A stretch of DNA of 64,000 nt, from the NCBI GenBank assembly GCA_007753915.1, contig CP036352.1, positions 3,721,306 through 3,785,305 on the forward strand. The letters run 5' to 3'. Within the stretch, counting starts at the first letter, position 1. Each line of letters starts with the position of its first letter. Under the pieces are notes generated by a model. That model did no database searches. It saw only the letters and a program-made list of their open reading frames with translations, and was not told where the DNA came from. Below, piece after piece: positions 21,309 to 59,989 of the stretch. Origin of the DNA: Phycisphaerae bacterium RAS2 (GTDB lineage: Bacteria; Planctomycetota; Phycisphaerae; UBA1845; UTPLA1). Made by a program: the position numbers and the translations under genes.

Positions 21309-21328
21309 TCCGCTATTCGCTATTTCTT
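21309..21328 (-). repeat. Dispersed GCGAAT-type repeat, copy 3, inverted
   Basis: CCGCTATTCGCTATTTCTTC is the reverse complement of the repeat core and supplies the stop codon of the DUF1501 gene. With copy 2 it forms an inverted pair around the convergent gene ends. Confidence 0.6.
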
Positions 21329-22657
21329 CAACAGCTTGATCGGCGCAAAGGTTCCGCCCAGGATTTGCTTCGCGCTCGCACCCAGCCAGTGCTGCAGCAC
21401 CGTCGCATAGACCGCCCGGAAATCGATCTGCCATTTCACATCGCCGCGGTCGAGCTTGCTGGCGTCGAGACTCGGGTGCTGGCCGACCACACCCGGCTGC
21501 ACGCCCTTGCCCACGACGAAGAGCGGCGCGGCGGCGCCGTGATCGGTGCCCTGCGAGGCGTTCTCGGCGACCCGGCGGCCGAATTCGCTGAAGGTCATGA
21601 TCAGTACGCGATCGAGCAGCCCGTCGGCCTTCAGCGACTCCACAAATTCGGACAGCGCGTCGCCGAGCTGAGTCATGAGTTGCTGATGTCGCCCAAGCTG
21701 GCCTGCGTGGGTGTCGAACCCGCCAAGCGAAACATAATAGACTCGCGTCGGCAAGTCCGCGGCGATCATGCGATGGACCATCGCCAGTTGCTGGCCCAGT
21801 TGCCCGCCATTGCGGCGCCCGTTGCCCCCGACCGGGCCGCGATCCATTCGCGCGGCGCGGCCGCCTCCACCCCCCGCAGCCTGTTGAATCTGCTTCGCGC
21901 TGGCCCGCGCGTCCATCGCCGTGCGCTGAAGAAACGCCAGCGCGCCCGCCTCGGTCAATCGATCCGCCCCTTTCGGGACTTCAACGGCCTCGTTGAGCGC
22001 CTCGAAGGCATCCTGCCCCGCGCGCGAACCATCCGGCCCGCGCCACGAGAGTTGATCGGGTTGGTCAAAGCTGACCGGGCTGAATCGCCGGCCCTGCAAG
22101 GCCAGCGGCGATTCGGTCGTCAGCGCGATGCCCAGTCGCGGGTCGCACGGGTCCTTGCCGCTGCAGGTGCAGTCGAAGAATCGACCGATCCATCCGTCGT
22201 GATGCTGCCCGTTGGGGGAAGCGGTCGACCAGATGTCGGTCGCGACGAAATGCGAGCGATCGGGATTGGGGTAGCCCACGCCCTGCACGATGGAGAGCAG
22301 GCCGTCGTCAAACAGTTGTTTCATCCCCGTTGCGGCCGGATGCAGGCCGAGTTTGTCCGTGAGTTTGAGCGCGTCCTTCTTCGCGATGGCAATGCGCGGC
22401 CGGGCGCGGTAGTAGGCGTCGTTGGTGTATGGGATGACGGTGTTGAGGCCGTCGTTGCCGCCGGCAAGCTGCACGACGACGAGGATGCGCTGGTCATCGC
22501 GGCGGGCCGGCTTCCTGCCGCGCGCCGCATCCGGCTCGGCAGCCAAGAGCGACGACGCAGTCGCATCGATGAACGCCGGGACGGTGGCCGCACCGGAGAG
22601 AAGCGTCAGCCCGCGAGCGATGAAGTCGCGGCGGGTATGGATGGTCAAATCATTCAT
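21320..22657 (-). CDS. DUF1501-family secreted protein
   Basis: A 445-residue exported protein. The N-terminus has a twin-arginine signal (TRRDFIARG, residues 8-16, then a hydrophobic stretch), so it is probably folded before export. The body has the DUF1501 layout, related to the alkaline-phosphatase/sulfatase fold: VVQLAGGNDGLNTVIPY near 55, SHFVATDIWSTA near 130, VSLGGFDTHAGQ near 310 and TFSEFGRRVAENASQGTDHG near 360. These proteins are highly amplified in planctomycetes and almost always sit beside DUF1800 genes, as here. Biochemical function is not established. GAGG precedes the ATG. Confidence 0.95.
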   Translation of the reverse strand: MNDLTIHTRRDFIARGLTLLSGAATVPAFIDATASSLLAAEPDAARGRKPARRDDQRILVVVQLAGGNDGLNTVIPYTNDAYYRARPRIAIAKKDALKLTDKLGLHPAATGMKQLFDDGLLSIVQGVGYPNPDRSHFVATDIWSTASPNGQHHDGWIGRFFDCTCSGKDPCDPRLGIALTTESPLALQGRRFSPVSFDQPDQLSWRGPDGSRAGQDAFEALNEAVEVPKGADRLTEAGALAFLQRTAMDARASAKQIQQAAGGGGGRAARMDRGPVGGNGRRNGGQLGQQLAMVHRMIAADLPTRVYYVSLGGFDTHAGQLGRHQQLMTQLGDALSEFVESLKADGLLDRVLIMTFSEFGRRVAENASQGTDHGAAAPLFVVGKGVQPGVVGQHPSLDASKLDRGDVKWQIDFRAVYATVLQHWLGASAKQILGGTFAPIKLLKK

Positions 22658-22711
22658 CTTTGAGCCTCACACACAAAACTGAATGCGGCAAAGGCCTTCT
22701 TGTACTAATCC

Positions 22712-22803
22712 GGAATGTCGAATTGCGAATAGCAGATAGCGAATGCGCCCTGCGCTCGCGCTTTCGCCAATCGTCATTCGCTGTTCGCAATTTCAGTCAT
22801 TCG
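22712..22803. repeat. Dispersed GCGAAT-type repeat, copy 4, as a long inverted repeat
   Basis: GAATTGCGAATAGC with AGATAGCGAATG (22721-22746) and its near reverse complement CATTCGCTGTTCGCAATTTC (22775-22794) flank a short GC-rich centre. Transcribed RNA could form a long imperfect hairpin between the DUF1800 and DUF1501 genes. Confidence 0.65.
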
Positions 22804-22827
22804 TCCTCACCTGATTCGAAACGGCGC

Positions 22828-24375
22828 TCAACCCAACTGATATTCCGGCATGCTGACGATCAGATGCAGCAGCAGCCGGACGGACGCGGCGTCGATTTTG
22901 CCGCCATCGGGTAGCTCGTCCTTCAAGGCGCGGATGAGAATCTGCTGCCGCCCCTGGGTGATTTCGCGCTGGAGCAGCCGGCGAACGAAGTAATCCACGA
23001 CGGCTTCTGGCGCTTCGAGCTTGTTCGCGCGGATCATCGGCATCGGATCGAACGGAGGCTGGGCCGCATCGACCAGCCCGGCGTCCATCGCCTCGCCACC
23101 GAGCGTCGCCTCCAGTTGCGGGCGCATGGCCGCCCGTCGATAGCGCTCGCGCGGGTTGTCGGTGCCATCGAGCACCATGCCGACAAGGTTGTACCGGTTG
23201 AACAGGGTGCTGGTGCTGATCCAGGTCTCTCCGCCGTCCCAGCCCTTCACGTTCGGCGGCTGCATCAGTTGCTGCCCCATCTGCCGCAGGGCGACGTTGA
23301 TGGCCAGCGTGTCGCGCGGGGCAACCTCCAGCATGCGCATCGTGCCGACGACGAGTTCGACCGGGCTTTTGATGTGCGTGAACCGTGCTTTCTCGCCGTA
23401 GAACACGTCGCTTAGGAACATCTCACGGAGCATCGGCTTCAATTCGTACTTGTTTTTCCGCAGCGTCTTCGCGAGGGCATGGACGACGTTCAGGGGCGGG
23501 TCCTCGTGCGCGAAGAACGTCCAGAACTTCGCCGCGACGAACTCGGCCGTCGCCGGCTGTGCCAGAATAATGTCAACCACGTCGGCCGGCCCCCACGGCC
23601 CGGTGCGCCCGAGAAACGTCTTCACGCCGTCGTCGTGCTGCCGGCGGTTGAACGTCGTCTCACCGGTCGCTGGATCGATCTGGATGCCGGTGAGCGCGCG
23701 GGCCGCTTCCTTGATGTCCTTCTCGGTGTAGCGCCCGCTGCCCATCGTGAACAATTCCATCAGCTCGCGGGCGTAGTTTTCGTTCGGCTTGCCCTTGCGA
23801 TTCTGCTGCGAGTTCAAATACAGCACCATCGCGCCGTCGGCTGTCACATCGAGCAGCAGATCGCGGAAGTTGCCGGCGGCGTGCTTGCGGAACAGTTCGT
23901 TCTGCTGATACAGCAGGTAGCTCGATTTCACCTCGCGATAGCCGCTGGTGAAATGGCCGTGCCAGAACAGCACGAGCTTTTCCTGCAACGGGCGCGGCGT
24001 GGCGACCATGGTCTGAATCCACCAGTCGAGCACGCGCGTAAGCTGTGCCGCTGATTCGCGCCGCAGGCGCGTCTGTTCGCGCTGGCGCTCCTGCTCCGAC
24101 ATTTCCATGCGCGCCATGCGATCGGGCCTCGACCCCCGCGAGACTTCGATCGGCAGCGTTTCGTCCGGCTCGTTCTCGTAATTCAGCAGGTAATCGACGG
24201 CCTTTCGCCGGCCCATCTGATGCAGGTAGTCAATCTGTTCGGGCGTGCCGCCGAAACCGGCGCGCCGGAGCAGATGGGCGGCGTGGTCGCGTGTCCACTC
24301 GCTGGAGGCGTAGAGCTGGCCTGTCGGCGCTGGGCCGGCCAGGGTCAGGATCATGGCAAACGTCGCGTTCAACAT
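22828..24375 (-). CDS. DUF1800-family secreted protein
   Basis: A 515-residue protein from the ATG at 24375, which has AAGGAAA upstream and begins a short Sec-like signal sequence; the frame is open 18 codons further. DUF1800 hallmarks are HLLRRAGFGGTPEQ near residue 35, LFWHGHFTSG near 130, YARELMELFTMGSGRYTEKDIKEAARALTG-type text near 200-230 and a PPNVKGWDGG block near 385. It is upstream of the DUF1501 gene in the same direction, the usual paired arrangement. The pair is probably exported together; the molecular role is unknown. Confidence 0.94.
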   Translation of the reverse strand: MLNATFAMILTLAGPAPTGQLYASSEWTRDHAAHLLRRAGFGGTPEQIDYLHQMGRRKAVDYLLNYENEPDETLPIEVSRGSRPDRMARMEMSEQERQREQTRLRRESAAQLTRVLDWWIQTMVATPRPLQEKLVLFWHGHFTSGYREVKSSYLLYQQNELFRKHAAGNFRDLLLDVTADGAMVLYLNSQQNRKGKPNENYARELMELFTMGSGRYTEKDIKEAARALTGIQIDPATGETTFNRRQHDDGVKTFLGRTGPWGPADVVDIILAQPATAEFVAAKFWTFFAHEDPPLNVVHALAKTLRKNKYELKPMLREMFLSDVFYGEKARFTHIKSPVELVVGTMRMLEVAPRDTLAINVALRQMGQQLMQPPNVKGWDGGETWISTSTLFNRYNLVGMVLDGTDNPRERYRRAAMRPQLEATLGGEAMDAGLVDAAQPPFDPMPMIRANKLEAPEAVVDYFVRRLLQREITQGRQQILIRALKDELPDGGKIDAASVRLLLHLIVSMPEYQLG

Positions 24376-24513
24376 GAGCGTTTCCTTGCGTGTCGGCCGT
24401 ACAGCATGGCCGCGAAAGGCCGCGGGCATGTCACCCCGGGCGCCTCGCCCCTATCGATGCGGGGCCAAACGATTGCCGCCAGGAATTATTTCGACCGACT
24501 CGGGCCGGACCGC

Positions 24514-25683
24514 CTACTCTTTGGGGGGCAAAACGCGATCCAGCAAGGCCATGTCGTTCTGTTTACCGGTCGGAAAAATGGTAATGCTCAAGGGGGCCGT
24601 CTTGAACTCCTGATCGGTCAGAAGCGTGCTGGCCGAGCCGGTCGTGTCCATGAGGGCGGTCACGTCGGCCACGTGATTGAGGCCGAGCAAATGGCCCATT
24701 TCGTGCGTAGCGACGTTGCCAATGGCCACGCCGATGCCGTCGGCGCTGGGCCGGGGGTTGAAGGGATCGTCGAAATTATTGGTGAAGACGAGGGCGTCGT
24801 CGCAGCGGTCGCGATTATAAGCGTCGACGTCCTGGGCCACGCCGAACTTGGTCTCACTGAATGCACCGAAGAACACGGTCGATGTGCACTCCGGGGGCGC
24901 GGGGTCGTCGGTCGTCACGATGACAACGCTCGTGTTGCGAAAGTTCTGCCGCACGGTCTCGACGATCTTCGCCTTGATCTGATCGGTCATGCCGGTGTAG
25001 GCCGCGTCGATGTCAGCGGAATCAAATGGGCCGGTGGTGTAGGTTCGATCACCGGGGATCGAAATGACACCTCCGTCAAAATCGAGCATGACAATCTGCT
25101 GCGCCGGCGTCGGGATCGTCTCGCCCTTGCGGATCTCCACGTCACCGACGTACGCCCCGGAACGATCGCCGAAATAGAACTTCGACACGGCAAGGTAGTA
25201 CGGCTCGTCGGCGACGGTGACGACCTCGTCGATGTATGACTCGACCTTTCCGGCGGCGTAGTCCAGGTCATCGTTCAGGGCGAACACTTCCTGCTGCGAA
25301 TTGAAGATGCAGATGATCGGATCGAGGTTGCTGCCCGCGGCCGGGCGCACGCTCACGATGACGCGGTCGCCGGGTTCGAGCGGGCCGAGGCTGTACACAT
25401 CGACCTTGCCGCTTGTGATGTTGCCGGAGATGACGGCCTTGCCCTGTGCATCGAGTGGCAGCAGCGCGGCGGAGTCGAAATCCTTCCCCGGCGCGACGCC
25501 GCCGGGCAACGCGGGATAGAAGAGATCGCACCCTGCGACGAGCAGCCAGGCTGACGCGAGCGCGGGCAATCGACTGCGGAAACCGCCGCGCGGACCGTTT
25601 CGTTCAGGGCGTGGAGTCGAATGGTTCAAGGCGACGCGCTCCGGATGCCGGCGAGGGATCAGGCGAGGGTGGCGACGCCCCAT
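24514..25683 (-). CDS. Predicted metzincin-type metalloprotease lipoprotein
   Basis: The chain has a lipobox (LVAGC, Cys near residue 52), then a beta-sandwich resembling bacterial pre-peptidase C-terminal domains (about 75-160) and a C-terminal zinc protease domain. The zinc motif HEMGHLLGLNH (H327, E328, H331, H337) is followed by a Met-turn-like ALMDTTG, the combination that defines metzincins. The start is uncertain: ATG 25683 is used, a TTG lies at 25698, and either leaves an unusually long basic stretch before the signal. It probably sits on the outside of a membrane. Its targets are unknown. Confidence 0.8.
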   Translation of the reverse strand: MGRRHPRLIPRRHPERVALNHSTPRPERNGPRGGFRSRLPALASAWLLVAGCDLFYPALPGGVAPGKDFDSAALLPLDAQGKAVISGNITSGKVDVYSLGPLEPGDRVIVSVRPAAGSNLDPIICIFNSQQEVFALNDDLDYAAGKVESYIDEVVTVADEPYYLAVSKFYFGDRSGAYVGDVEIRKGETIPTPAQQIVMLDFDGGVISIPGDRTYTTGPFDSADIDAAYTGMTDQIKAKIVETVRQNFRNTSVVIVTTDDPAPPECTSTVFFGAFSETKFGVAQDVDAYNRDRCDDALVFTNNFDDPFNPRPSADGIGVAIGNVATHEMGHLLGLNHVADVTALMDTTGSASTLLTDQEFKTAPLSITIFPTGKQNDMALLDRVLPPKE

Positions 25684-25725
25684 TATACGCGGTGGCAACG
25701 ATGGAGGCGAGCGATTCCGGATGCC

Positions 25726-27453
25726 CTAGGGGTTGCTATAGGTGAAATTCACGTGGTTAACGCCGTGGCAGGTCAGGGTGCAGGAACCCTGGAATCGGCC
25801 CGTGTCGATGAACCGGCGCTGCCCGCCGACGATGCGCAGGTCGAAGTTGATGAGCGCGCTGTGATTGGCCGGGCTGCCCGAGACGCCGTGCGGCGCGTGA
25901 CACGACGAGCACGGCGTGCGGCCGGTGACGACGTGCCGGTTGTGGAAGGTGAAGCTCTGGTCGCCGAGGATGCTGGTGCGATCGTGGCAGCGATAGCAGA
26001 GGGCATACGCCTGGGGCGATTCCATCGTGAAGTCGGCCGTCTCGTAGTTTTCCACGAGCAACCAATCGAAGCGTGAACCGTGCGGCCCGTTCGGCCCGCC
26101 GCCACCGAGGTTGCGCGCGTCGGGATTGTTGTGACAGCTCTGGCAACTCAACACCTGGTGCGCGAGCGGATTGATGAGACTTGGAACTTCCCCGGAGTTC
26201 CGCGCGGGGCTGACGACAGGATGCAGCGACGCGTTGGTCGGGAGGAACTGGCGGCGAACATTGCCGAAGTTGTCGCGCTGGCGCGGGATGCGATCCTGCA
26301 TGAAGACGGGATTGTCCCCGTGGCAGCGGAAGCAGACTTCGTAATAGTACCGCGCCCGGTCGGTCGGCGTGCCGGCGACGGTGACGCCCTTCACGAACTC
26401 CATCGGCGGCGGCACGAGCACGCCGCGCGGCTCGAACACAGGTACGAGCGACCCGATCGGGTTGTCGCGCACGGCGTGCGGATTGTGACAATCGACGCAT
26501 TCGCTGTGCGGCGGCATTGCGAGGTGGTTCTCCGTCGGGTCGTGAAGATCCAGCAGGCGATTGAAGCGATGCGAACTGCGCAGATTCAGCACGCCCTGGA
26601 TGTCCCGCCCGTTCAAACCGTTATGACAACTGATGCACAGTTCACTGGGCCGGTCGTTCAGAAGCCGTTCGGGGTGCTGCGCGTTGTGCGACGTGTGACA
26701 CGAATAGCAGGCGGCATCAGCCATCGTCGCGAACGGCAGCGCTTCGCCGTTGGTCACCGTGACGGGCACCGATCGCGGCGCGAGGGCGTGGGCGCTCATC
26801 TGCCAGCCGTCCATTTTGTGGCAGGTGTTGCAAAGCGCGCCCTGGCGCTGCGTGACGCGGAGAAAATCGCCGAGTTCGTTGTTGTGCGGATTGTGGCACG
26901 CCGTGCATTCCATCTCGCCGCGTTCGCCGAGTTTGACACGCTGGGAGACCAGATCAGGCGAGCGCAGCTGGTGATCGCGCGCCGCTAATTGCCGATCGAA
27001 TCGGAACCCGACGGGATGATCGTCGGAGAGATCGTTGGTGAGGTTCGAGCGGCCCGAGGTCAGGAACGGCTGATTCATCGGGATCGGATCGGTCGGCGGG
27101 CGACTCAACACCATGCCCAGCGCGACCGAGCCGTCGTGGCAGGAAAGGCACATCTTGCTTGGCCCGCCGGGTTGATCGATGCGCGCGTCGGTGGTGCTGC
27201 TCTGGTAGATTCGATAGTAGGTCGTGGGGTTGTATCGGTTCCAGAGCGGGGCCTGCGGGCTGGCGTTGTGCGGCGTGTGGCAGAAGATGCAGACCTCGCC
27301 CTCGTTCAAGGCGCGGATCGAGCCGGGGCCGGTCGCCGAAAGATTGTGCACCGAGTTGACGACGCTCTCATCAGCGCGCGCGGACTTCACCGGCGCGCCG
27401 GTCAGCAGCCCGATCGTCCAAAGCACGGCCAGAATCGTTGGTGTCGTTTTCAT
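25726..27453 (-). CDS. Periplasmic/extracellular 12-haem cytochrome c
   Basis: A 575-residue exported protein with a Sec signal (residues 1-27). It has eleven CXXCH sites from C55 onwards and a final CTLTCH (CX3CH) site near the C-terminus, so up to twelve covalent haems. Many sites are of the CXXCHXPH/CXXCHNPH doubled-motif kind. Spacing is irregular, which suggests a chain-like electron wire rather than an enzyme; no catalytic domain is seen. Its ATG overlaps the TGA of the NHL lipoprotein gene upstream, which overlaps the beta-barrel gene in turn, so all three are coupled. This is the downstream gene of a likely conduit operon. Confidence 0.9.
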   Translation of the reverse strand: MKTTPTILAVLWTIGLLTGAPVKSARADESVVNSVHNLSATGPGSIRALNEGEVCIFCHTPHNASPQAPLWNRYNPTTYYRIYQSSTTDARIDQPGGPSKMCLSCHDGSVALGMVLSRPPTDPIPMNQPFLTSGRSNLTNDLSDDHPVGFRFDRQLAARDHQLRSPDLVSQRVKLGERGEMECTACHNPHNNELGDFLRVTQRQGALCNTCHKMDGWQMSAHALAPRSVPVTVTNGEALPFATMADAACYSCHTSHNAQHPERLLNDRPSELCISCHNGLNGRDIQGVLNLRSSHRFNRLLDLHDPTENHLAMPPHSECVDCHNPHAVRDNPIGSLVPVFEPRGVLVPPPMEFVKGVTVAGTPTDRARYYYEVCFRCHGDNPVFMQDRIPRQRDNFGNVRRQFLPTNASLHPVVSPARNSGEVPSLINPLAHQVLSCQSCHNNPDARNLGGGGPNGPHGSRFDWLLVENYETADFTMESPQAYALCYRCHDRTSILGDQSFTFHNRHVVTGRTPCSSCHAPHGVSGSPANHSALINFDLRIVGGQRRFIDTGRFQGSCTLTCHGVNHVNFTYSNP

Positions 27454-28505
27454 GGCACGCTCTGCGTCGTTGGGGGGTCGCCCGCACCGAGAAACTGAAA
27501 CACCTGCACGCGTCGATTGTAGGTGTCGGCAATCCAGATGCGATCCCGTTCATCAATCGTGATGCCCGACGGCAGGTAAAACTCGCCCGGCGCGCGACCC
27601 TCCTGCCCCCAGGCCATCAGCAGTTGGCCGTCGCGCGAGAAGATCTGCACGTTTTCGAACTGGTTGTCCACGACGTACACGTGGCCATGCGAGTCCAACG
27701 CAAGGTCGCGCGGCATCGAGAAGTCCCCCGCCGCGTCGCCTTTTTGGCCGAACATGGCGAGCGGTGAGCCGGTCTCGGCCAGCACCTGTACGCGAAAGTT
27801 CATCGAGTCGGCCACGGCCAGGCCGTAACGCGGGTCGAACGCCAGGCCCGCGGGATAATTGAACTCGCCCTGCGATGCACCGCGCCGGCCGAGCGTCCGT
27901 TTCAGTGAACCATTGGCCCCCATCACATGGCACGCATGGGCCGCCGAATCCAAGACGAACAAGTCGCCGCTCGCCGGATGCACCGCGATGGCCGACGGCC
28001 GCTTCAATCCCTCGATGGCGAGCGTCCGTCGGAATTGACCACTCTCGTCAAACTCGAAAACGCCGGGGCGGGCGCTGTCCGCGACAAACAAGGAATCACC
28101 GCGCAACGCCAAGTCGATGGGGAAGCCGAACGGCGCGCCACCCGCGACTGTGATCGCCTGAAATTCTCTCGTCGCCACGTTCAACCGATAAACTGCCCCT
28201 GCCTGACCATCTGCCACGAAGACGACATCGCCGCGCGTTGCGACAGATGTCGGCGTGGAGAAGTTCGTCACAGGTGGCGGCCCCTCGAGCGCCGACTTGA
28301 CGGCGGCCCAGCCGGTCGGACGACGATCCAGCGATTCTTCCCCGATCAACTCGCCGATGTAGCGGATACGCGGGGCGTCGGGCGCCTTGGGCCAGACGAT
28401 CGCCGGCGCAACATCGGGGAAGACCGGTCGCTGCGGGCGCTGGCAACCCGCCATCGCGCCGAGCGCGACCCACGCAATCAGCAAGCATGCACGGCACATC
28501 GTCAT
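27450..28505 (-). CDS. NHL-repeat beta-propeller lipoprotein
   Basis: A 351-residue protein from the ATG at 28505, chosen because it overlaps the upstream stop (ATGA) and starts a signal peptide ending in a lipobox (AMAGC, C21). From about residue 60 to the end there are about six NHL blades, recognised by repeating D-x-x-R-V-Q/F-V-style strands and FG-x-G-x-x-x-G-x-F turns. The fold is a six-bladed propeller with no obvious catalytic residues, normally a protein- or polymer-binding scaffold. It sits between a beta-barrel gene and a 12-haem cytochrome gene with 4-bp overlaps both sides. In the locus at 51731-59817 the same kind of propeller is fused to haem domains, which argues for direct contact with cytochrome. 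Confidence 0.9.
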   Translation of the reverse strand: MTMCRACLLIAWVALGAMAGCQRPQRPVFPDVAPAIVWPKAPDAPRIRYIGELIGEESLDRRPTGWAAVKSALEGPPPVTNFSTPTSVATRGDVVFVADGQAGAVYRLNVATREFQAITVAGGAPFGFPIDLALRGDSLFVADSARPGVFEFDESGQFRRTLAIEGLKRPSAIAVHPASGDLFVLDSAAHACHVMGANGSLKRTLGRRGASQGEFNYPAGLAFDPRYGLAVADSMNFRVQVLAETGSPLAMFGQKGDAAGDFSMPRDLALDSHGHVYVVDNQFENVQIFSRDGQLLMAWGQEGRAPGEFYLPSGITIDERDRIWIADTYNRRVQVFQFLGAGDPPTTQSVP

Positions 28506-30634
28506 GATCGCGGCTTTCCGATGATCGGTATCTCGCGGCGGACCTTCACCCACAGCGCGGCGGTGTTGTCGGTGCTGGTGGGCAGGTCGAGCATATCGTA
28601 TTCGGCTTCGACCAGCAGGGTGAACAGCCCCAGCTTCCACGAGACGGATGCCGTCAGGTCCACACCGTTTGTCTCGCCGAAAATTGAATCGTTCTGGAAC
28701 CGATAGAGCGCGGTGGCGTTGGCCTCGATACTGGGCGCGAGCGTGTAGCGGTAAAACGCCCCGAGGTCCAGCAGCATCGTATCGCGCGAGTCGAAGTTCT
28801 CGTTGCCGTCGAATCGGAAATGCGAGAGCGCCCCGCGCAGCGCCGCCTGCTGCTTCAAGTCCTGCAGCACGGTGACATCGCTGGTGAAGTGCCCGGCCTG
28901 GTACGGATCAATCCCGTCGTGATTGTATTCGTATTCCGCCGACCCCGCCCATCGCGGCTTCGTGATCGCGACGCCGAGCCGGTGGCGGTTGATGTCGCGC
29001 TCCTGAAAAACGAGATAACGATCATCCGACAGATCTTCATCCTGAAGTGACAGGGCGTAATACGGTTCGATGCCGTTCTTGAATCGATGTGCGAGCCGCA
29101 GGTCAATCCGATCGCGCGTCGCGCCATAGTCATTGAACGCGCGATACGAGTACGTCACCAGCACCGTCTGCCCATCGACGATCATGCCGGTTGGATTACG
29201 CACCAGCGACGTCAATTCGCCCTGCTTCACCACTGCGTAGTCTCGCCCGGCGAGGAACAGGCGCGACCGGTCGGCTGCCATGACCATGAGCGTGACGAGG
29301 TTGACGTTGCGCTGCGCGAGGTACACCGGCAGCGGATCACGAAACGTAAGGGTTTCTTCGACGGTAATGCCGTCGCGGCGGCCGTCGGACGTGCGCGTCT
29401 GGGAGTGGTGATAGGACAGATTCGCGCTGGACCGGCCCCAATCGTTTTCCTTCGAGAAGCTCGAATTGAACATCGAGCCCCATTCGGTGGCATCGGCGTT
29501 GCCGTCGGCGCGCTGCTCGAGCGCATACAGGTTGACAGTGTTCGTCAGCGACTTGAACAGCGTGTGCGTCAGACCGGCCTCGCCGCGGAAGGTCTCGGTC
29601 GAGAGATCGAAGTAGTTCTGCTTGAGGTACTGCGTGCGAAACAATGAAAAGAGATCGTCGGTGTGCTGGAGCCGCAGTTGCGGGGCGACTTCGACGACGT
29701 CGCGCGGGAGATCGCCGCGCTCCTCTTCGACGCGCACGAACGTATCCAGCCGGCTGCGGCGGTCGTCGCCGAACTGGATCGCGTCATTCAGGGCGAGGTA
29801 ATTCCGCGTCGTGGTGAACGAGTCGCGCGTGCCGGAGTAGCGGTCGTTGCGATTCTCGTATTCATAGTTAATGTTGAGCGAGTGGTCCTCGGTGGGGTTC
29901 CAGGTCGCTTCGTAACGCAGCGTGTCCTCGGCAAGCTCCTCATCGTCCATCAGATAGCGCGAGTCGCTGGTCAGGTCGTCGTACAAGTGATCAAACGTCA
30001 GCTGCATCGGCAGCTTCGGGTCGTTGAAGATCAGCGCCGCGCCGTACTGCTCGCGCGTGCGATCGAGGCTCGGCAGGAACGGTCGTTGCAGCCGATCCCG
30101 CAGTTGCGAGGCGTTCGCCGTGGCAGAGAGCCTGCCCTGTGGGAAGGCATGAAGCCGCAGGTCGTATTCCAGCAATGTGCCGTCCGGATCGCGCGACAGG
30201 TCGAACCCCGGCCGCGATTCTTTGTAGTCCTCCTGCGAGAGACCGCCGCGGATCATGGCGTCGTACAGCAGCACCTTTTCGCTGACGATGCTGCCGCTGG
30301 AGGAAAGACCGAGGTACTCTTCAAATCGCGTGTTCCGGTTCTTCTGGTCGTAGCGCGCGAGAGGCCCGCCGATGTTGGTGCGAACGGTCCGGCGCATGGC
30401 CTCGAAGTTCGCGCCGAGTTCGGCTGTCATTTCGTCTATTTTCAGGAGCGGACGGCGCGAGGATTGCAGGCTCAAGGGACCGGGCGACTCGGCCGTGGAA
30501 TCGCCGGCCGACGCATCCGACGGCTCGGCCGTCGCATCCCCCGAATCATCTTCGGGTGTATCGGCCGTCGCGGATGCAACGCATCCGACGAGCAGCAGAA
30601 CGGCGACAAGGAACAATGCTCTGCGAATCAGCAT
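28502..30634 (-). CDS. Predicted outer-membrane beta-barrel lipoprotein
   Basis: A 710-residue protein with a lipobox (LLVGC, C18) followed by an acidic, Ser/Ala/Asp-rich linker (about 20-55). The rest alternates amphipathic strands with Tyr, Phe and Asn/Asp-rich turns, typical of a large outer-membrane barrel. A more globular stretch at about residues 420-500 may be a plug or surface domain. No CXXCH is present. It is the first gene of a coupled operon with the NHL lipoprotein and the 12-haem cytochrome. A barrel plus multihaem cytochrome is the plan of porin-cytochrome conduits (MtrAB-type, and Ext-type in Geobacter); homology to those was not shown. A terminal aromatic residue is absent. 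Confidence 0.75.
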   Translation of the reverse strand: MLIRRALFLVAVLLLVGCVASATADTPEDDSGDATAEPSDASAGDSTAESPGPLSLQSSRRPLLKIDEMTAELGANFEAMRRTVRTNIGGPLARYDQKNRNTRFEEYLGLSSSGSIVSEKVLLYDAMIRGGLSQEDYKESRPGFDLSRDPDGTLLEYDLRLHAFPQGRLSATANASQLRDRLQRPFLPSLDRTREQYGAALIFNDPKLPMQLTFDHLYDDLTSDSRYLMDDEELAEDTLRYEATWNPTEDHSLNINYEYENRNDRYSGTRDSFTTTRNYLALNDAIQFGDDRRSRLDTFVRVEEERGDLPRDVVEVAPQLRLQHTDDLFSLFRTQYLKQNYFDLSTETFRGEAGLTHTLFKSLTNTVNLYALEQRADGNADATEWGSMFNSSFSKENDWGRSSANLSYHHSQTRTSDGRRDGITVEETLTFRDPLPVYLAQRNVNLVTLMVMAADRSRLFLAGRDYAVVKQGELTSLVRNPTGMIVDGQTVLVTYSYRAFNDYGATRDRIDLRLAHRFKNGIEPYYALSLQDEDLSDDRYLVFQERDINRHRLGVAITKPRWAGSAEYEYNHDGIDPYQAGHFTSDVTVLQDLKQQAALRGALSHFRFDGNENFDSRDTMLLDLGAFYRYTLAPSIEANATALYRFQNDSIFGETNGVDLTASVSWKLGLFTLLVEAEYDMLDLPTSTDNTAALWVKVRREIPIIGKPRS

Positions 30635-30823
30635 GACCTGGAACCGGGCACGACTTGCGACGAGCCGATGCTACGTGAGTCATGAGCGTCCGGCTCGGGC
30701 ATCTCGCCTTGACGCCGTCAGGCAGGTATCCTACCGAGCCGATGGGTCTGCGTCGTCGAACTTTTCGACGGACGCGCCTCGCTTTCGGTCTGCAACCCGG
30801 CCGATGTCCTGCGAGCTGAATGC

Positions 30824-31507
30824 ATGAAACACACCGCGACAGATTGGCGACCTGCCCGACTAGGGACAATCACGCTGGGTGCGGCATTTTGCGCGGTTCT
30901 CGTCGCCTGCGCGGCACGGCCGACCATCGACAGCCCGCCCCTGAATACATCGGCCGAAATCGCCGGCGGGCCTTCTGCGATCGATGAACCGTCCGATCTG
31001 TACGCCGGGGGCCTGACCGGCAGCAAGCATGATTTCTCCTTAAGCGACGGGCGATGGAAGGACCTCTGCACACCCTGCCACACGCCGCACGAGCCGAAGC
31101 TGCCGGATGCGGCGGTGTCGGGCGCGCCGCCCGTTCGATTCGTGAGCTACTCTGCCGATCCAACTTCGCTGGACCGCTCGTCGGTGCTGTGCTTGAGCTG
31201 CCACGATGGCGTCACCGCGCAGGACGTGTTCACCGGCGCGCACGCCGTTTCATGGTCAACCCCGCTGGGGGCGAGCACCCTGCCGATCAGCGGGCGCGTC
31301 AGCCACCCGATCGGCATCCGGATGCCGTTGGGCGACTCCACGTATCGCAGCCCGGCCGAGGTTCAGGCGAGCGGGTTGGTCAAGCTGCCCGATGGGCGCG
31401 TGCAGTGCATCTCCTGCCACGATCCGCACAACACCGACCGGCACCCGGCCATGCTGGTTCAATCCAACCGCGGCAGCCGACTGTGCCTCGCATGCCATCG
31501 CATCTAA
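30824..31507 (+). CDS. Tetrahaem c-type cytochrome lipoprotein (paralogue 1)
   Basis: A 227-residue protein with a lipobox (LVAC, C29) and four CXXCH sites: CTPCH, CLSCH, CISCH and a C-terminal CLACH. It is clearly paralogous to the protein at 59110-59817: both share a GVxxxDVFTxAHA stretch after haem 2, a DGRxxLPxGRVQC-like approach to haem 3 and an HPAMLV-S-N run before haem 4. It starts 190 bp from the divergent beta-barrel gene, so the two operons may share control. Its end overlaps the next gene, an NHL lipoprotein. A small hairpin (CGTCGAA/TTCGACG, 30754-30770) lies in its leader. Confidence 0.9.
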   Translation: MKHTATDWRPARLGTITLGAAFCAVLVACAARPTIDSPPLNTSAEIAGGPSAIDEPSDLYAGGLTGSKHDFSLSDGRWKDLCTPCHTPHEPKLPDAAVSGAPPVRFVSYSADPTSLDRSSVLCLSCHDGVTAQDVFTGAHAVSWSTPLGASTLPISGRVSHPIGIRMPLGDSTYRSPAEVQASGLVKLPDGRVQCISCHDPHNTDRHPAMLVQSNRGSRLCLACHRI

Positions 31508-32661
31508 GTCGATTGCTAATCGCCCTCGGCGCGGCGCTGGCGGCAGCGCCGGCGACGCTCTGTGGTTGCGCGAATACAGGGGCAGCATCGCGCCCGACGT
31601 TCTCGTGGTATTCCGCCCAACCGGACGCGCAACAATCGCCAACGAAAGCGGCTCGGATAACCGGGCCGCGCGTGCTGGCCCTCGGCAACTTGCGATGTGG
31701 CCAAGCACCCTCCGAAGCACGGCAGGCGTTGTCGGAGTTTTTTCTCGGCGAGCGAATCGAGAGCGGCCCCGGCCTCGTCAAGCCGGGCGCGATGGCGTGG
31801 CAAAAAGACGGCTTACTTGTTTCCGATGCCGGGCTGGGCACGCTGGTTCGCTGGCCTTCCGCAGCGCACGGACTTCAACCGGCGGTGGTGTCGGACGAAT
31901 CGATTCGCGCGGCCGCGGTCGCCGCATGTGAGAATGGTGAATTCCTCGTCGCGATCCCGGCGTCGGCGGCAGTCCATCGCTATGACGCACGTGGGCGGCT
32001 TGTTCGACGCTATTTGATTTCATCCGAGTTTCGACCGATGGGCGCGGCGCAGATCGGGCGCAGCATATGGGTGACAAACGCGGCGCGACACAATATCGAG
32101 GTGTTCGATTCGGAAAGCGGTTCATCCGTGCGCGCAATCGGGCAGCGCGGGCGCGGACCGGGCGAGTTCAACCTGCCGATGGGCATCGCGGCGCTGCCGA
32201 AGGATCATCCGCTGGCCGACGGCGGTGCGGTCGTGGTGGATTCGTTCAACGCGCGAATTCAGGTGCTTGATTCGAGCGGCCGATGGGTGCGCGACCTGGG
32301 CGGGCCGGGTGATATCACGGGCCGCTTCGGGCGACCGATCGGCGTAGCGGTCGGACCGGATGGGGCGATTTTCGTGCTCGATGCGGCGTCGCAGCGCGTG
32401 CACGCGTTTGACGAACGAGGCAAGGCCCTGCTGGCGTTCGGCAGGCAGACGGCGGATTCACACTCGCTTCTGCTGCCGGGCGGAGTGTGCGTGGTCCCCG
32501 TTGTAGCAGAGGCAACCACTCTGCGGCGCGATGCGGGCGTTGAATTAAGACCAGCGTATTACGTCTTGGTGTCGGAGCAATTAAATCGCCCGGGCATTCG
32601 CGCGTATGCGTGGTTTGAAACAACGGCGGCATCAGAGAGAATCGGACTCATGACGCATTGA
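31492..32661 (+). CDS. NHL-repeat beta-propeller lipoprotein, paralogue without haem domain
   Basis: A 389-residue protein. The ATG at 31492 overlaps the tetrahaem gene by 16 bp and starts a signal peptide with a lipobox-like TLCGC (C26). The body (about 60-385) has NHL/propeller blades with GPGEFNLPMGIA and GRFGRPIGVAVGPDG-type repeats and ends in a YYVLVSEQ...PGIRAYAW element. That element and most blades match the propeller half of the 8-haem fusion at 57116-59134, but here the protein stops after the propeller. It follows a tetrahaem gene just as its paralogue does. No catalytic residues are evident; a scaffolding role for electron-transfer proteins is inferred. Confidence 0.87.
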   Translation: MPSHLSRLLIALGAALAAAPATLCGCANTGAASRPTFSWYSAQPDAQQSPTKAARITGPRVLALGNLRCGQAPSEARQALSEFFLGERIESGPGLVKPGAMAWQKDGLLVSDAGLGTLVRWPSAAHGLQPAVVSDESIRAAAVAACENGEFLVAIPASAAVHRYDARGRLVRRYLISSEFRPMGAAQIGRSIWVTNAARHNIEVFDSESGSSVRAIGQRGRGPGEFNLPMGIAALPKDHPLADGGAVVVDSFNARIQVLDSSGRWVRDLGGPGDITGRFGRPIGVAVGPDGAIFVLDAASQRVHAFDERGKALLAFGRQTADSHSLLLPGGVCVVPVVAEATTLRRDAGVELRPAYYVLVSEQLNRPGIRAYAWFETTAASERIGLMTH

Positions 32662-42517: not shown

Positions 42518-45500
42518 TCACGGGCAGGTGTCGCCGGCGAGCAGCTTCGAAACCAGCGCGTCGGCATCCGTCAGGTCCAGCACTTCGTCCTCGTTGACAT
42601 CGGCCACACACAACTCCAGCGAGCCGAGCGGCGGATTAGCCAGCAGGCGAATGATGAACTCGTTGATGTCCAGCCCGTTGATCGTGCCATCGCTGTTGCA
42701 GTCGCCGGGGCAGCAGATGACCGAAGCCGGGGGACACGTCGCGTAGCCCGGAAGGATCAGCGCTGTGAACACGCCGAGGTCCAGCCCGTCGACCGCGCTG
42801 TCGCCGTTGACATCGGCGCGGCAGAACTCCGGATCAGCCGGCAACGGCGGATTGAGCACGGCGTTGATCAGCGGGTCGAGATCGATCAGGTCGATGTCGC
42901 CATCGCCCTGCATGTCGCCGGGGCAACAAGACACCGGGCAGGTGACATCCTGACAGAGGATATCAGTCCCCTGGAAGTCCCCGTTGGCCAAGCTGCACGC
43001 CGCGGAGTCAAGGAACTGGCACGAGCCGTCAGGCAAACAACATGCACCGGGCGGCTGCAAGCAGGGATTCGGATCGCACACACTGCCCGGCCCCTGGAAG
43101 GTTCCGCCGTTGCCGTTGCACTCAATCTCGGTCTGGTCTTCCTGACAGATACCGCCCATCAAGCAGCACGCGCCGATCGGCTGCGGGCAGGGGTTGGGCC
43201 CGCACTTGGTACCGACGCCCTGGTACGTGCCCGAAGTAATCGCACAGTTCGTTTCCGTGATCAACTCACAGACGCCCGTAATCAGGCAGCACGCGGCTTC
43301 GCAGTTCAGGTCGTAGAAATGGACGACTCCGCTATCGATCGCGGGCGCATCCCGCAGGTAGGCGCCGACCGCGAGCTTGCTTCCGTCCAACGCGACGCTC
43401 CAGCCGAATCGATCTTGTGCGGCGGCCCCAAGCCACTGGAACGTGAACGCCCAGGTACTTCCGAGGCGTCGATAGAATCGGGCAATTCCACGATTGGGAA
43501 AGGCGGCCGAATAAGAATCCGCACCGATCACCAACGCGTTTCCGCTTAGCGAGATAAAGGGAGCCAGGGAGTCGGACGCGTTCGAAACGGGAATCGATGG
43601 ATTGATCTGTTGTTCAAGCGACCAGGTGTTGCCCGATCGCGTGTAGACATGAATGATTCGAGCGATGCCTCCGTCAGCGCCAACGGCTGCCGTGTCTCCG
43701 CTTAGCGCGGCGGCAACACCGAAGCCGGTTAGCGCGGGCGATGCATTGGCCAGGAGCGTGGCCTGTTCAACCCAGGCCCCGCCGTCGTAGAAATAGACGT
43801 AAGCAGCGCCACGACTGGTGCCCATCTGATCCGCAGCCGGCGAACCGATCAGCGCATAGTCTCCGTCGATCTCGGCGGAATAACCGAAGAAGTCCTGGTC
43901 TGGACCATCAGGATTGGTCACTGTTTGGAATTCATTCCAGACGCCGGCATCATTGTGGAAGAAGGTGGCGTGTTCGGATGCGTATGCCCCCACAAGTATC
44001 CAATCACCATCAATGGCGACGGACGCCCCAAAGAGCTGCGGGCTTGGCTGTGAGCTGACAAGTTTCTGCGACTCGGTCCACACGATTCCGGAGCGAGCGA
44101 AGACGTAGGCAGCGCCGCCGCCCGGCATGTTGTCGGCTCCGACGACAATCGTGTCGCCGTCAATGGCCACGTACTCGCCAAAACTGGCGTCGGCTACCAG
44201 ATCCGCCCCGACGATTCGCTGTTGAAGCACCCAATTGCCGGCGGAATAGACATAGACATACGCCGCACCGCTACCGGAGTCTTCGCCCGGCGCGCCGACA
44301 ACAGTCGTATTGCCGCTTATCGCCACGCTATGGCCGGAATGGGCATCGGCCGTGTTGGGCACCGGCGGAAACACGCCTTTGGGAATTGGAACACAAACGC
44401 CATGAGGGCCTTCGCAGGGATTGGGCGTGCAGGGAAGCCCCACGTTGAAGACATCTCCGACAGCGTTGCACTCCGCCTCGGTCGTCTGATCGCAAGTGCC
44501 ATTAGTATGACAACATGCTCCAAGCGGCTGGGGGCATGGATTGGGTTCGCAGGCCGTTCCGGCACCGCCGTACGCGCCAAACACCGTGCCGCAGGCCGCC
44601 TCGGATAGCACTTCACAGTGGCCATCTTCAAAGCAGCATGATCCGAACGGTGAGCAACTCAACGTGATCTCACCCGTCCCCGTCGCGCCAACGACCCCAC
44701 CGATGCGCACGAGATAGCAATTGCCCGCTTCCACGGGGAAGGTCACCGTCGGTGCGCCGCCGGGCAGGCAGCCGTCGTCATCGCAAGTGATCGGTGCGGC
44801 GCCGACCGGGCAGGCGCAACCGTCGTAAACGGCCATCGCAGCGTTGAAGCTCGCGCCGCACAGGTCAATGGTCACATTGCCGTCGCATGTGGCGACGTAG
44901 CTGTACCAGACATCGTTGGTGATCAGCGTGCAGGGTGGATTCGGCGTATCGGCCGGGCCGTCGGTGCTTGCACCGTTGGTGACGAAGGGCGTGACGCCTT
45001 CACCGAGCGTGAGCGCGCCATCGCAGGAATCGTTCTCGGGCGGCGGGCAGGTGATCGGGTTGCACGGCTCGCCGGGCGTGAAGACATCAGGCGTGATGCA
45101 GGCCGCGGCGGGAATCACTTCACAGGTATGATCGGCGTGGCAGCAGGCGCCCTGGCCCGTGGGCACGCAGTCGATCTGGAGATTGCCCGAACCGGCCGCG
45201 CCGGCGACGCCTCCGATGCGGATGAGGTAGCAGTTGCCCATCGTCACGGGCAGGCTGACACGGCTCGCGCCGCCGGGCATCATGCATCCGTCGTCGTTGC
45301 AGGCGAGCCGCGGGCCGAGCACAGGCGGACAGAAGCACGAATCGTAAACCGCCAGCGCGGAGTCGAAATCGGTGCCGTCGCAAAGGCTGACGTGCAACGT
45401 GCCGGTGCACTCGGCGGTGTAGGAATACCAGATGTCGTTGGTGATGATCGGGCAGCCGGGTCCGGCGTCGGGCGGGCCGTCGGTCGTTGCGCCGAGCGTG

Positions 45501-46870
45501 GAGAACGGCGAGAAGCCGCCGGTGATGGTCAGCTTGAATTGACAACTGTCGTTGATCGGCGGACACTGAACGGCGGCGCAGGTGCCGGCGGTCCAGACGC
45601 CGTTCATGTTTTCGCAATCGAGGATCGAGAGGTCTTCGCAAGTCCCGTCGGGCTTGCAACACGCGCCGGGCGTGGTGTCGCCGCAGGGCGGGACGAGATT
45701 CGCGCAGAGCGTGTCCGGCTCGAAGCGTTCATCCATATCCTGGCAATCGGCGATGCCGACGTTGTCGGTGCACAGGGCGGTGGTGTCGTTGCAGCAGGCG
45801 CCGACGACCGGTGCGCACGGCGGGTCGAGCAGCGAACAGATCGTGCCGATGTGAAAGACATCGAACGGCGCCATGCACTCCGATGCGTCGGAGACGGTCG
45901 TGCACATGCCGGTCTCGGCGTTGCAACACGCGCCGATGTCAGTGACGATTTTTTGCCCGTACAACTGAAACGAAAGCTCGCGTGCCTGCCCGGCGGGAGG
46001 CGTCCCCGGATCGATGCAGAACCCGAGGTTACCGGGATTGTTGGACCAACTGTTGATGCCAACGAGGGGGAAGAACACCTTCGACATCGAGACGTCGACC
46101 GGCAGATCGGCCGAGAGCATCCAGGCGCTCTGTGGCGGTGCAAAGTGCCGTGGGACGACGCTGATCCAGTAGGTGTGATTCTTCTCGACGAGCAGATCGA
46201 CGGGAATGTCTACGACGTAGGCCGGGCGGCACGCATTGACAAGCGTCTGATTCTCCAACTCGGCCATCGGAACCAGTTGCGAGGCGACGACCGTGCCGGT
46301 GTGCCCGCCCATGTTGTTGGGCTGACCGGATGGAATGTTGCCCACGGCGTTTTCGTAGATGGTGACGTAGACGCCGCCGGTCCAGGTCGTGGTCGGTGTG
46401 GCGCTCGGGGCACCGCTCTGGAAAAAATGAAACGCAACACGGACGGTGGAGATGCGCGCGACGGTGTCCGGCGAGACGGAGTCGGTAATCGAGAAGTCAT
46501 CGGCGGCCGCGGCGATGAAGTTCCACGGGGCCAAGGCCTCGCTCAACTGGCTGGCCGGGTTGCCGAAATCGTCGATTGGCTCGCCGTTGTCGAAGAGCAA
46601 TTCACCCGCGGGTGTGCTACCGCGAAAACGCATCGGCAACTCGCGCCAGACGGCCTCCGGCGAGATGCCCTTCTCGCGGGACACCGGACTGTTCTGCGGC
46701 GTGGAGAACTGCGACGGACCGGCGGCGGCTGGTTTGCCCGGGCTGTTGGGCTTGATCTGCGAGTGCGTCAGGGCAGGCGACCCGAACAGGCATGCGAAAG
46801 CAACCATGGAGGTGCGGAACATCCCCCCCACGGCGCAGCGCCGCCTGATCCCCAAGTAGCCTCTTGTCAT
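42518..46870 (-). CDS. Large secreted Cys-rich FG-GAP/dockerin mosaic protein
   Basis: A 1450-residue exported protein; the ATG at 46870 has GGCAGG upstream and begins the signal (about 1-38). In order: a beta-rich N-terminal domain (about 60-300); Cys-rich GACC-type repeats (about 300-440); two long homologous modules with NDSC...TNDIWYSY/TNDVWYSY and a final Cys-rich unit (about 440-780); about six FG-GAP-like beta-propeller blades (about 830-1170; VAIDGDTIVVGAD-type); more GACC repeats; and two dockerin-like Ca-binding segments (D-x-N-x-D loops, about 1290-1450). Dockerins attach to cohesins in cellulosomes, but in planctomycetes they often occur as C-terminal tags without known partners. 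An extracellular adhesive or surface role is inferred. Confidence 0.88.
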   Translation of the reverse strand: MTRGYLGIRRRCAVGGMFRTSMVAFACLFGSPALTHSQIKPNSPGKPAAAGPSQFSTPQNSPVSREKGISPEAVWRELPMRFRGSTPAGELLFDNGEPIDDFGNPASQLSEALAPWNFIAAAADDFSITDSVSPDTVARISTVRVAFHFFQSGAPSATPTTTWTGGVYVTIYENAVGNIPSGQPNNMGGHTGTVVASQLVPMAELENQTLVNACRPAYVVDIPVDLLVEKNHTYWISVVPRHFAPPQSAWMLSADLPVDVSMSKVFFPLVGINSWSNNPGNLGFCIDPGTPPAGQARELSFQLYGQKIVTDIGACCNAETGMCTTVSDASECMAPFDVFHIGTICSLLDPPCAPVVGACCNDTTALCTDNVGIADCQDMDERFEPDTLCANLVPPCGDTTPGACCKPDGTCEDLSILDCENMNGVWTAGTCAAVQCPPINDSCQFKLTITGGFSPFSTLGATTDGPPDAGPGCPIITNDIWYSYTAECTGTLHVSLCDGTDFDSALAVYDSCFCPPVLGPRLACNDDGCMMPGGASRVSLPVTMGNCYLIRIGGVAGAAGSGNLQIDCVPTGQGACCHADHTCEVIPAAACITPDVFTPGEPCNPITCPPPENDSCDGALTLGEGVTPFVTNGASTDGPADTPNPPCTLITNDVWYSYVATCDGNVTIDLCGASFNAAMAVYDGCACPVGAAPITCDDDGCLPGGAPTVTFPVEAGNCYLVRIGGVVGATGTGEITLSCSPFGSCCFEDGHCEVLSEAACGTVFGAYGGAGTACEPNPCPQPLGACCHTNGTCDQTTEAECNAVGDVFNVGLPCTPNPCEGPHGVCVPIPKGVFPPVPNTADAHSGHSVAISGNTTVVGAPGEDSGSGAAYVYVYSAGNWVLQQRIVGADLVADASFGEYVAIDGDTIVVGADNMPGGGAAYVFARSGIVWTESQKLVSSQPSPQLFGASVAIDGDWILVGAYASEHATFFHNDAGVWNEFQTVTNPDGPDQDFFGYSAEIDGDYALIGSPAADQMGTSRGAAYVYFYDGGAWVEQATLLANASPALTGFGVAAALSGDTAAVGADGGIARIIHVYTRSGNTWSLEQQINPSIPVSNASDSLAPFISLSGNALVIGADSYSAAFPNRGIARFYRRLGSTWAFTFQWLGAAAQDRFGWSVALDGSKLAVGAYLRDAPAIDSGVVHFYDLNCEAACCLITGVCELITETNCAITSGTYQGVGTKCGPNPCPQPIGACCLMGGICQEDQTEIECNGNGGTFQGPGSVCDPNPCLQPPGACCLPDGSCQFLDSAACSLANGDFQGTDILCQDVTCPVSCCPGDMQGDGDIDLIDLDPLINAVLNPPLPADPEFCRADVNGDSAVDGLDLGVFTALILPGYATCPPASVICCPGDCNSDGTINGLDINEFIIRLLANPPLGSLELCVADVNEDEVLDLTDADALVSKLLAGDTCP

Positions 46871-47032
46871 CGACCTGCCTTCCCAGTAACTCCTGCCATA
46901 CCAAGCGCTTGAAGTCGGCGGGCTGTTTCGGCGTGGATGCGTCCCCTCTTCGACGCTCATTTTACCCACTTCGTGATTCTAATCCTAGCCTAATTGTCCT
47001 TTTGCTTGAGTCTTATAAGTGGTTGGAGGCAA

Positions 47033-54700: not shown

Positions 54701-55069
54701 TGCGACGCGGCGAATCTCGCGCGCGACATGGCCCGCCGGGTTAAAGACCACGATTCGATCATTCACTCCGTCGGCGACAAACACGCGTCCGTCGCGCGCG
54801 ACGGCGACATCCGTCGGCATGAGGAGACCGGGCGCGGCACGGTCGGCGAACTCGATCGCGGATTGTGCCAGCAGCGGAACATCCGGCGCTCCGGAAGCAG
54901 GCTGCGTCGCGGCAAAATCCGCAATCGGCGTATCCGCTTGTTGCGCAAAAATCCGCGGTGCGCAGATGACTGCCAGCAGGAAGAGCACCAAAGCGCGATT
55001 CCACGGAAAATACGAACGCTTCGCGGCAGCGCCGAACAAGAAAGAAATAGCGGAAAAAGCGTTCGCCAT
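51731..55069 (-). CDS. NHL beta-propeller fused to a 20-haem cytochrome c
   Basis: A 1112-residue exported protein. The ATG at 55069 is chosen for the GAGG eight bases upstream and because it begins a signal sequence (about 1-44, cleavage near IFA). Residues about 60-370 form an NHL propeller with MPTDVAVARDGRVFVADGVN-style blades. From C382 to the C-terminus there are twenty CXXCH sites, many in the CXXCHXPH form. No catalytic domain is seen. The fusion combines on one chain the propeller and haem wire that are separate genes at 25726-28505. Probably periplasmic or outer surface. It is divergent from the NapC-type gene (96 bp), implying a shared control region. Confidence 0.92.
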   Translation of the reverse strand: MANAFSAISFLFGAAAKRSYFPWNRALVLFLLAVICAPRIFAQQADTPIADFAATQPASGAPDVPLLAQSAIEFADRAAPGLLMPTDVAVARDGRVFVADGVNDRIVVFNPAGHVAREIRRVADQSLAHPVGIDVDASGNLWIADAGNARIVVANVPAAADAPIELIRIIPLPAGPNDHPADPTDAAVSPDGAVVWTVDNNRHVLIRHDVKRGTHALAGRQGEARGQLHYPFMLARDAKGNVYASDVLNGRVGVFSDTGGVVTSIAQYGVEPGMLYRPKGVALDADGNVWVSDSVLGVVQVFTSTGRFIDVLRDASGKPLKLAAPMGMAFDASGDLYVVELDANRVRSFRIVRRADAGASARDESRSATQRPSVVGRQARACTVCHMEWVEPLAQKRGTELINPPDDDPVHPYVSQPHTCLSCHDGSIVDSRRRVWLEHGHRTDIAPLPEMTVPPQLPLVDGKIACRTCHSAHAGGDLSGNLKTSVFLRMPNTSGEMCVTCHADKTRGPQRGTHPTGGMPWAVPNDLIAAGAKVGPNPRELTCNVCHTPHGAAYDHLLVMGTESNQLCLSCHDQMRPGMFRDGDHTEHPLSPIVNTEQKAAIQSLGTKLGPDDKLICLSCHKLHHGKGERFMLAAELTDGAFCVGCHSAKTSVFKTPHDLRKTYPEERNRLGMTAQTGGPCSSCHLFHRYARSPEISDIDPGGGKCITCHQEGRCAGEKALGSFNHPKAACVECHDPHGPHEPNRPALGQFLREPTPGLCVKCHAEYAALSGGPHDFRSTGNQWPQVADLREDTCLACHRPHGKDDKGLFTFAASPADAASDGACIACHPGAAWGHGADGEGLKQSDHAAMHPRIVPAGFATGGLPLARSASTEASVVGCRTCHNPHAADGAAHKFLRTAAGAPASSLCITCHSDASAITMTAHTAATFESKQLPAQACLPCHSVHAMPTAVEDDLLWPRSLAVAEESASPRAMPQAAAPREAINFAAMHASDQRCEACHREGGTARPPMIASHPDVPMLNIFDGTRDESLPLYDVEGRTASQGQIACRTCHTPHGHLPDTEFSGPDRSREALRSARLMLRPFRAPNVCTTCHGFDALERFLFFHDPVRRRK

Positions 55070-55164
55070 CGTGGACCTCGGCGGCCGATTCGCTGAACAT
55101 GATAGACGCGCGGGCGCGCCTTGCCTATCGACTGTTCGCCGCGCGCAGCACGAGGAGCGCACGC

Positions 55165-57015: not shown

Positions 57016-57115
57016 GAAGCGCACGGAGCGGCCACCGCTTCGGAGCACGAGCTAACTGTGCGTGGCGGGCAATGCCTAACGTGCGAACGAGGCGATTGCC
57101 GCTGATACTTCCAAC

Positions 57116-59817: not shown

Positions 59818-59989
59818 CGCAAGCGTCAATCGTATGGAGGTGTCCGGACGGGGGCAATCGGCGACATTGAATGATCCGGATGCTGATTCCACGGGCACTG
59901 CGCAAATCCTCGCACAGCTTGCCGCGCCGGCGTTTCGCGAATAACTTGGTTATTGACCCAGACACATCAGGAAAAGGAGCCGTGTTCCC

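Follow-up and report, generated by a model that had tools for sequence, protein, structure and literature searches.

The 64,000-nt window analysed here (the whole stretch of Phycisphaerae bacterium RAS2 DNA, to which all coordinates refer) carries a locus that probably encodes a porin-cytochrome conduit resembling that of the undecahaem electron transfer (Uet) pathway, in which a large β-barrel would sit in the outer membrane and hold an exported 12-haem cytochrome in or against itself. Three minus-strand genes—for the cytochrome, an NHL β-propeller lipoprotein (NHL1) and the barrel—overlap by 4 bp at each junction (27450-27453 between cytochrome and NHL1, 28502-28505 between NHL1 and barrel), exactly as a first-pass annotation of this DNA had described. 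On the plus strand, a divergent pair of genes for a small tetrahaem cytochrome and a second NHL protein (NHL2), absent from that annotation, is part of the same conserved cluster (Table 1). The annotation had further proposed that the co-translated barrel and multihaem cytochrome, together with their NHL partner, are a candidate trans-outer-membrane conduit, and this finds support in the predicted fold of the barrel, in MtrB as its joint-best structural match and in a gene order kept across phyla.

That order is conserved far beyond chance. A scan of genome contigs with a profile of the cytochrome returned at least 509 relatives, the best 80 of which were retained. Loci were picked by their cytochrome (a few by their barrel), so the order counts give the frequency of partners with the cytochrome and not the occurrence of NHL proteins or barrels alone. 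An NHL gene lies directly upstream of the cytochrome gene in 79 of 84 loci; NHL and barrel genes stand in order in 57 of 73, and a barrel is found anywhere in the locus in 71 of these 73. The usual arrangement is tetrahaem, NHL2, 5-haem lipoprotein (c5), barrel, NHL1 and 11/12-haem cytochrome, with c5 absent from gammaproteobacterial loci and from the window locus. The five-gene core (barrel, two NHL proteins, tetrahaem and 11/12-haem cytochrome) recurs in about ten phyla. Accordingly, a 67-row cytochrome tree comprises ten phylum groups, including Planctomycetota, Pseudomonadota, Bacteroidota, Verrucomicrobiota, Nitrospirota, Thermodesulfobacteriota, Calditrichota, Zixibacteria, Acidobacteriota and Myxococcota; its labels are strongly grouped by phylum, and the window falls inside a supported Planctomycetota clade. 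This spread rules out the planctomycete-specific type that had been suggested. Within Planctomycetota, a single-sequence search found the barrel in 10 of 293 other sampled genomes, always beside an NHL protein and a cytochrome (in one genome split over two contigs). The cytochrome is present in 44 of 61 genomes of the window's genus, family and order, and the divergent tetrahaem-NHL2 layout is common to a genus mate and several family members. The conserved c5 lipoprotein, which has an FFDGVP-like motif after its lipid-anchor cysteine, adjoins the barrel in L031 (5868-6488), L037 (6084-6713), L018 (11848-12447) and many other loci.

Modelled alone with AlphaFold2 from an alignment with 62 relatives, the barrel protein is confidently predicted to form a large outer-membrane barrel (predicted local distance difference test score, 89.7; predicted template modelling score, 0.81). 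This agrees with its earlier description as a barrel-type lipoprotein; the lipobox, recognised by pattern, occurs in the window and its genus mate, but among relatives only a minority have it (12 of 73). The model contains 28 long strands, counted from the DSSP line—16 of them ahead of residue 419, one spanning 420-430 and eleven from residue 503—and its turns on one side are short, the loops opposite being longer. The strand count would place the soluble insert on the outer side. It includes several of the best-conserved positions (D465, Y466 and Y495) and is possibly a docking domain. Its motif reads GxDYxxxxxGxxTxIxR...GxIxDGxTVLVDY, with a weak tail-tube-like profile match; NCBIfam matches to phage tail-tube and scytonemin ScyF models were below cut-off and set aside, and the barrel protein matched no Pfam family. 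Its structural matches are large outer-membrane barrels generally. Among the top ones, MtrB (6r2q_B) is joint-best and longest (Z 17.8 over 447 residues, model residues 62-662; Foldseek TM 0.41/0.44). BtuB, however, reaches Z 17.9, so the MtrB-level score is shared with TonB-type barrels and is not specific to conduits; by themselves, the matches point to a large barrel rather than to a conduit.

For the cytochrome, counting of haem motifs (Table 1) upheld the annotation as a 12-haem exported protein. The single CX3CH motif (C558-H563, C-terminal) is shared by 80 of 85 relatives, and the count of 12 is therefore right; all 12 sites are invariant in the 67-row alignment, whose rows were picked for having CX3CH. 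The protein matches PF09699, of the doubled-CXXCH type (E = 5e-25). Its N-terminal module aligns with the nanowire subunit OmcE of Geobacter (7tfs) in sequence (E = 9.5e-30) and profile (E = 2.4e-44) comparisons, and the predicted model resembles that structure (TMt 0.68, 34% identity; Z 12.0 over 175 residues). The aligned stretch retains the N-terminal His motif, four CXXCH motifs and the DHPV and second-His motifs. Within the whole-chain model, the C-terminal eight-haem half has no clear match in the PDB, the best being OcwA (Z 5.1), with octahaem reductases at about 2. Such weak similarities, and a barrel that scores equal to TonB-dependent receptors, might be expected if the barrel were an ordinary substrate channel or receptor, co-transcribed with cytochromes and NHL proteins that form a periplasmic or surface reductase. 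Yet none of 63 family barrels matched plug-domain or TonB-receptor families, the association of barrel and multihaem cytochrome is kept across phyla, and known barrel-cytochrome pairs are conduits, all of which makes a channel with a reductase decidedly improbable.

The small tetrahaem cytochrome scores 124 bits against the cluster's C4 profile versus 27 against that of c5, which rules it out as the cluster's 5-haem lipoprotein. It shows the OmcE motif pattern, with a weaker sequence match to OmcE (E = 4e-6), and C4-type tetrahaems match the same OmcE module as the N-terminus of the 12-haem cytochrome. Judged by pattern, a lipobox is rare in this family (present in 4 of 71 relatives, absent from 67), and its presence here suggests that the window encodes a membrane-tethered version.

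That a conduit cytochrome is headed by a nanowire-type subunit and has a tetrahaem relative encoded next to it hints at a joint for docking. Given its OmcE-subunit N-terminus and the fusions of NHL propellers to multihaem cytochromes in relatives (see below), the 12-haem cytochrome may be the seat where an OmcE-type chain docks. In OmcE itself, one haem receives its distal His from the adjacent subunit (PMC12307469). We offer as a tentative and rather doubtful extension that the 12-haem cytochrome serves as the seat, in the membrane, for a chain of cytochromes outside the cell: its OmcE-type module would protrude through or beside the barrel and be extended by OmcE-type tetrahaem subunits via an interface like that of the OmcE filament, with NHL propellers clamping the junction, so that one machine in about ten phyla would join a porin-cytochrome conduit to a nanowire. 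No statement of such a joint was found in the literature searched, outside which lie key nanowire papers, and it may already be known. How the cell receives electrons from cytochrome filaments outside it has been described as poorly understood (PMC10553843), and filament assembly and secretion as actively investigated (PMC12307469). A cluster in some ten phyla that combines a nanowire-headed conduit cytochrome with an adjacent tetrahaem relative makes the filament-to-cell question testable with defined proteins.

Alternatively, the cluster might mainly be an assembly or secretion unit for an OmcE-type filament, in which the barrel would export the tetrahaem subunit, and both the 12-haem cytochrome and the NHL proteins would serve as assembly factors or filament base. 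The tetrahaem gene and its NHL partner indeed travel with the barrel, the 12-haem cytochrome starts with an OmcE subunit fold, and the conserved barrel insert would lie outside. On the other hand, the rare lipobox of the window's tetrahaem makes it less likely that this lineage has a free filament, and a 12-haem protein exceeds the needs of an assembly factor; we consider this explanation unlikely.

As to the propellers, NHL1 matches the NHL repeat family (PF01436, E = 2e-26) and a "6-bladed beta-propeller" model (E = 6e-12). Of the "six-bladed NHL lipoprotein" annotated at first, the repeats and the lipobox pattern are thus established and the six blades likely, going by the family match; matches in the PDB (TRIM71, pizza designs) tell only that it is an NHL propeller. 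Besides, 11 open reading frames—nine in relatives and two in the window—combine an NHL propeller with 8 to 20 haem motifs. Since propellers are the cytochrome's nearest neighbours in nearly all loci and are fused to multihaem cytochromes in these 11 frames, they are probably tied to electron transfer, most simply as scaffolds. In family and order relatives (L140, L142, L144, L146, L147 and L150), NHL2 and an 8-haem cytochrome form one fused protein, encoded beside the tetrahaem gene. L151 and L152 encode the 8-haem part in a gene of its own downstream, so that a fusion or a split has taken place within the order.

The barrel, cytochrome and NHL plan is not new. It matches the published set of the Uet pathway, known from Ca. 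Tenderia electrophaga, Gallionella and the Leptothrix group (PMC10734462, PMC13386937, PMC12575090). That pathway combines an undecahaem and a tetrahaem cytochrome with a porin and NHL proteins, and includes an isomerase and three trihaem cytochromes as well (PMC10734462). The propeller is hence not the undescribed third component that it had been taken for, and NHL genes beside outer-membrane cytochromes have been noted in other published work too. The Uet cluster is uetABCDEFGHIJ (PMC12575090), with a TPR gene beside the trihaem genes (PMC5371394). By kind of component, the window's core five match: an undecahaem-like cytochrome with 12 motifs, a tetrahaem, a barrel porin and two NHL proteins, with UetC, UetH/I and UetJ of Ca. 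Tenderia compared by description, not sequence. Gammaproteobacterial loci in our scan, homologous to the window's, are ordered tetrahaem-NHL-barrel-NHL-undecahaem; the window differs in its divergent, not co-linear tetrahaem-NHL2 pair and in the lipobox of its tetrahaem.

Several points, besides the BtuB score, weigh against a Uet-like conduit. For a UetB-type peptidylprolyl isomerase, PF00639 matches in the genome only at 1.89 and 2.10 Mb and nowhere near the locus, a search that did not extend to other isomerase families. No three-haem reading frame corresponding to UetDEG is found among the window's open reading frames with haem motifs. The genome holds no clear c5 homologue, its weak haem-motif cross-matches reaching 29 bits at best. 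Finally, Uet is itself described by genomics and expression, with no biochemistry in the accounts found. Because isomerase and trihaem genes are missing at the locus, we regard it as a variant resembling Uet and stop short of claiming membership.

In the Uet-like conduit that we favour, the barrel in the outer membrane would hold the exported 12-haem cytochrome and thereby provide a haem chain through the membrane, while the OmcE-type module would offer four haems for hand-over to the separate tetrahaem outside the cell. Docking scaffolds that fix cytochromes to the barrel might be supplied by the NHL propellers, of which at least one is lipid-anchored. Electrons would cross the periplasm on other cytochromes, with the window's 11-haem NapC/NrfH-type protein as candidate inner-membrane partner, pass the outer membrane along the barrel-held 12-haem protein and be exchanged at the surface via the OmcE-type module, the tetrahaem and propeller-linked cytochromes. 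Flow could be in either direction.

Table 1. Features of the conduit locus and of the related multihaem cluster (window positions)
Feature	Position	Strand	Remarks
12-haem exported cytochrome, UetJ-like	25726-27453	-	11 CXXCH and 1 CX3CH; residues 24-213 predicted as OmcE-type tetrahaem module
NHL β-propeller lipoprotein NHL1, UetH/I-like	27450-28505	-	ATG start, 351 amino acids, lipobox MAGC
Large outer-membrane β-barrel (predicted), UetC-like	28502-30634	-	710 amino acids, N-terminal lipobox LVGC, soluble insert ~431-500
Intergenic region separating the divergent barrel and tetrahaem genes	30635-30823	.	promoters presumed from the layout
Tetrahaem cytochrome, C4 type, UetA-like	30824-31507	+	4 CXXCH, OmcE-type haem pattern, lipobox LVAC
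Second NHL propeller protein, NHL2	31504-32661	+	4-bp overlap with tetrahaem gene
NHL propeller fused to 20-haem cytochrome	51734-55384	-	start codon uncertain; upper end of open reading frame overlaps next gene
11-haem cytochrome, NapC/NrfH-type N-terminus	55099-57012	+	candidate inner-membrane quinol link; start uncertain
NHL propeller fused to 8-haem cytochrome	57119-59116	-	open frame to 59554; start near 59116 suggested by relatives' layout
Second tetrahaem cytochrome, C4-type, possible lipoprotein	59113-59898	-	

Elsewhere in the window, a second multihaem cluster related to the first occupies 51734-59898, and the two together bring most of the components for an extracellular electron chain within 35 kb. 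A DUF1501 and DUF1800 gene pair lies in 21320-25698, a matrixin-like metalloprotease (24514-25698) directly downstream of the 12-haem cytochrome, and a 1483-residue protein with FG-GAP repeats and dockerin type I domains at 42521-46969.

Compared with other known systems, the locus shares with MtrCAB, MtoAB and PioAB a large outer-membrane barrel, structurally similar to MtrB, and a multihaem cytochrome. An MtrCAB-type conduit would accommodate both, as well as MtrB among the best structural matches and a weak profile similarity of the cytochrome to MtrA (6r2q_A, E = 8.5e-8). However, family models exclude membership of the MtrB and MtrA families: MtrB_PioB (PF11854) matches neither in the genome nor in the 63 family barrels, and the cytochrome scores 55.7 bits with the model TIGR03508 for DmsE/MtrA-family decahaem cytochromes against a cut-off of 192.2. 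The window has NHL propellers in addition, and we hold an MtrCAB-type conduit to be extremely unlikely. With the OmcE nanowire of Geobacter sulfurreducens, the N-terminal module of the cytochrome shares, by prediction, the fold, four haem sites and distal-His motifs, yet here it is joined to eight more haems, the separate tetrahaem is probably lipid-anchored, and of the two systems it is OmcE that is known to form a filament. The OetABI conduit of partner bacteria of anaerobic methanotrophic archaea likewise clusters a porin with periplasmic, extracellular and putative nanowire cytochromes; in this comparison by description, it differs in that the text of the paper mentions no NHL protein or propeller (PMC10553843). 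A porin beside multihaem cytochromes is also found in PCC3 and PCC4 (PMC5566968) and in clusters of Verrucomicrobia (PMC5615132). Again by description and not by sequence, PCC3 differs in having periplasmic and extracellular cytochromes of 20-30+ haems (periplasmic median 21) and an inner-membrane protein, as against 12- and 4-haem cytochromes at our locus and a 20-haem NHL fusion ~20 kb away, and the verrucomicrobial set differs in its octahaems. Uet is matched by the window locus in all five core components. The conserved cluster would extend to Planctomycetota and many other phyla, in a Uet-like form, a pathway that was named in proteobacteria oxidising iron or cathodes.

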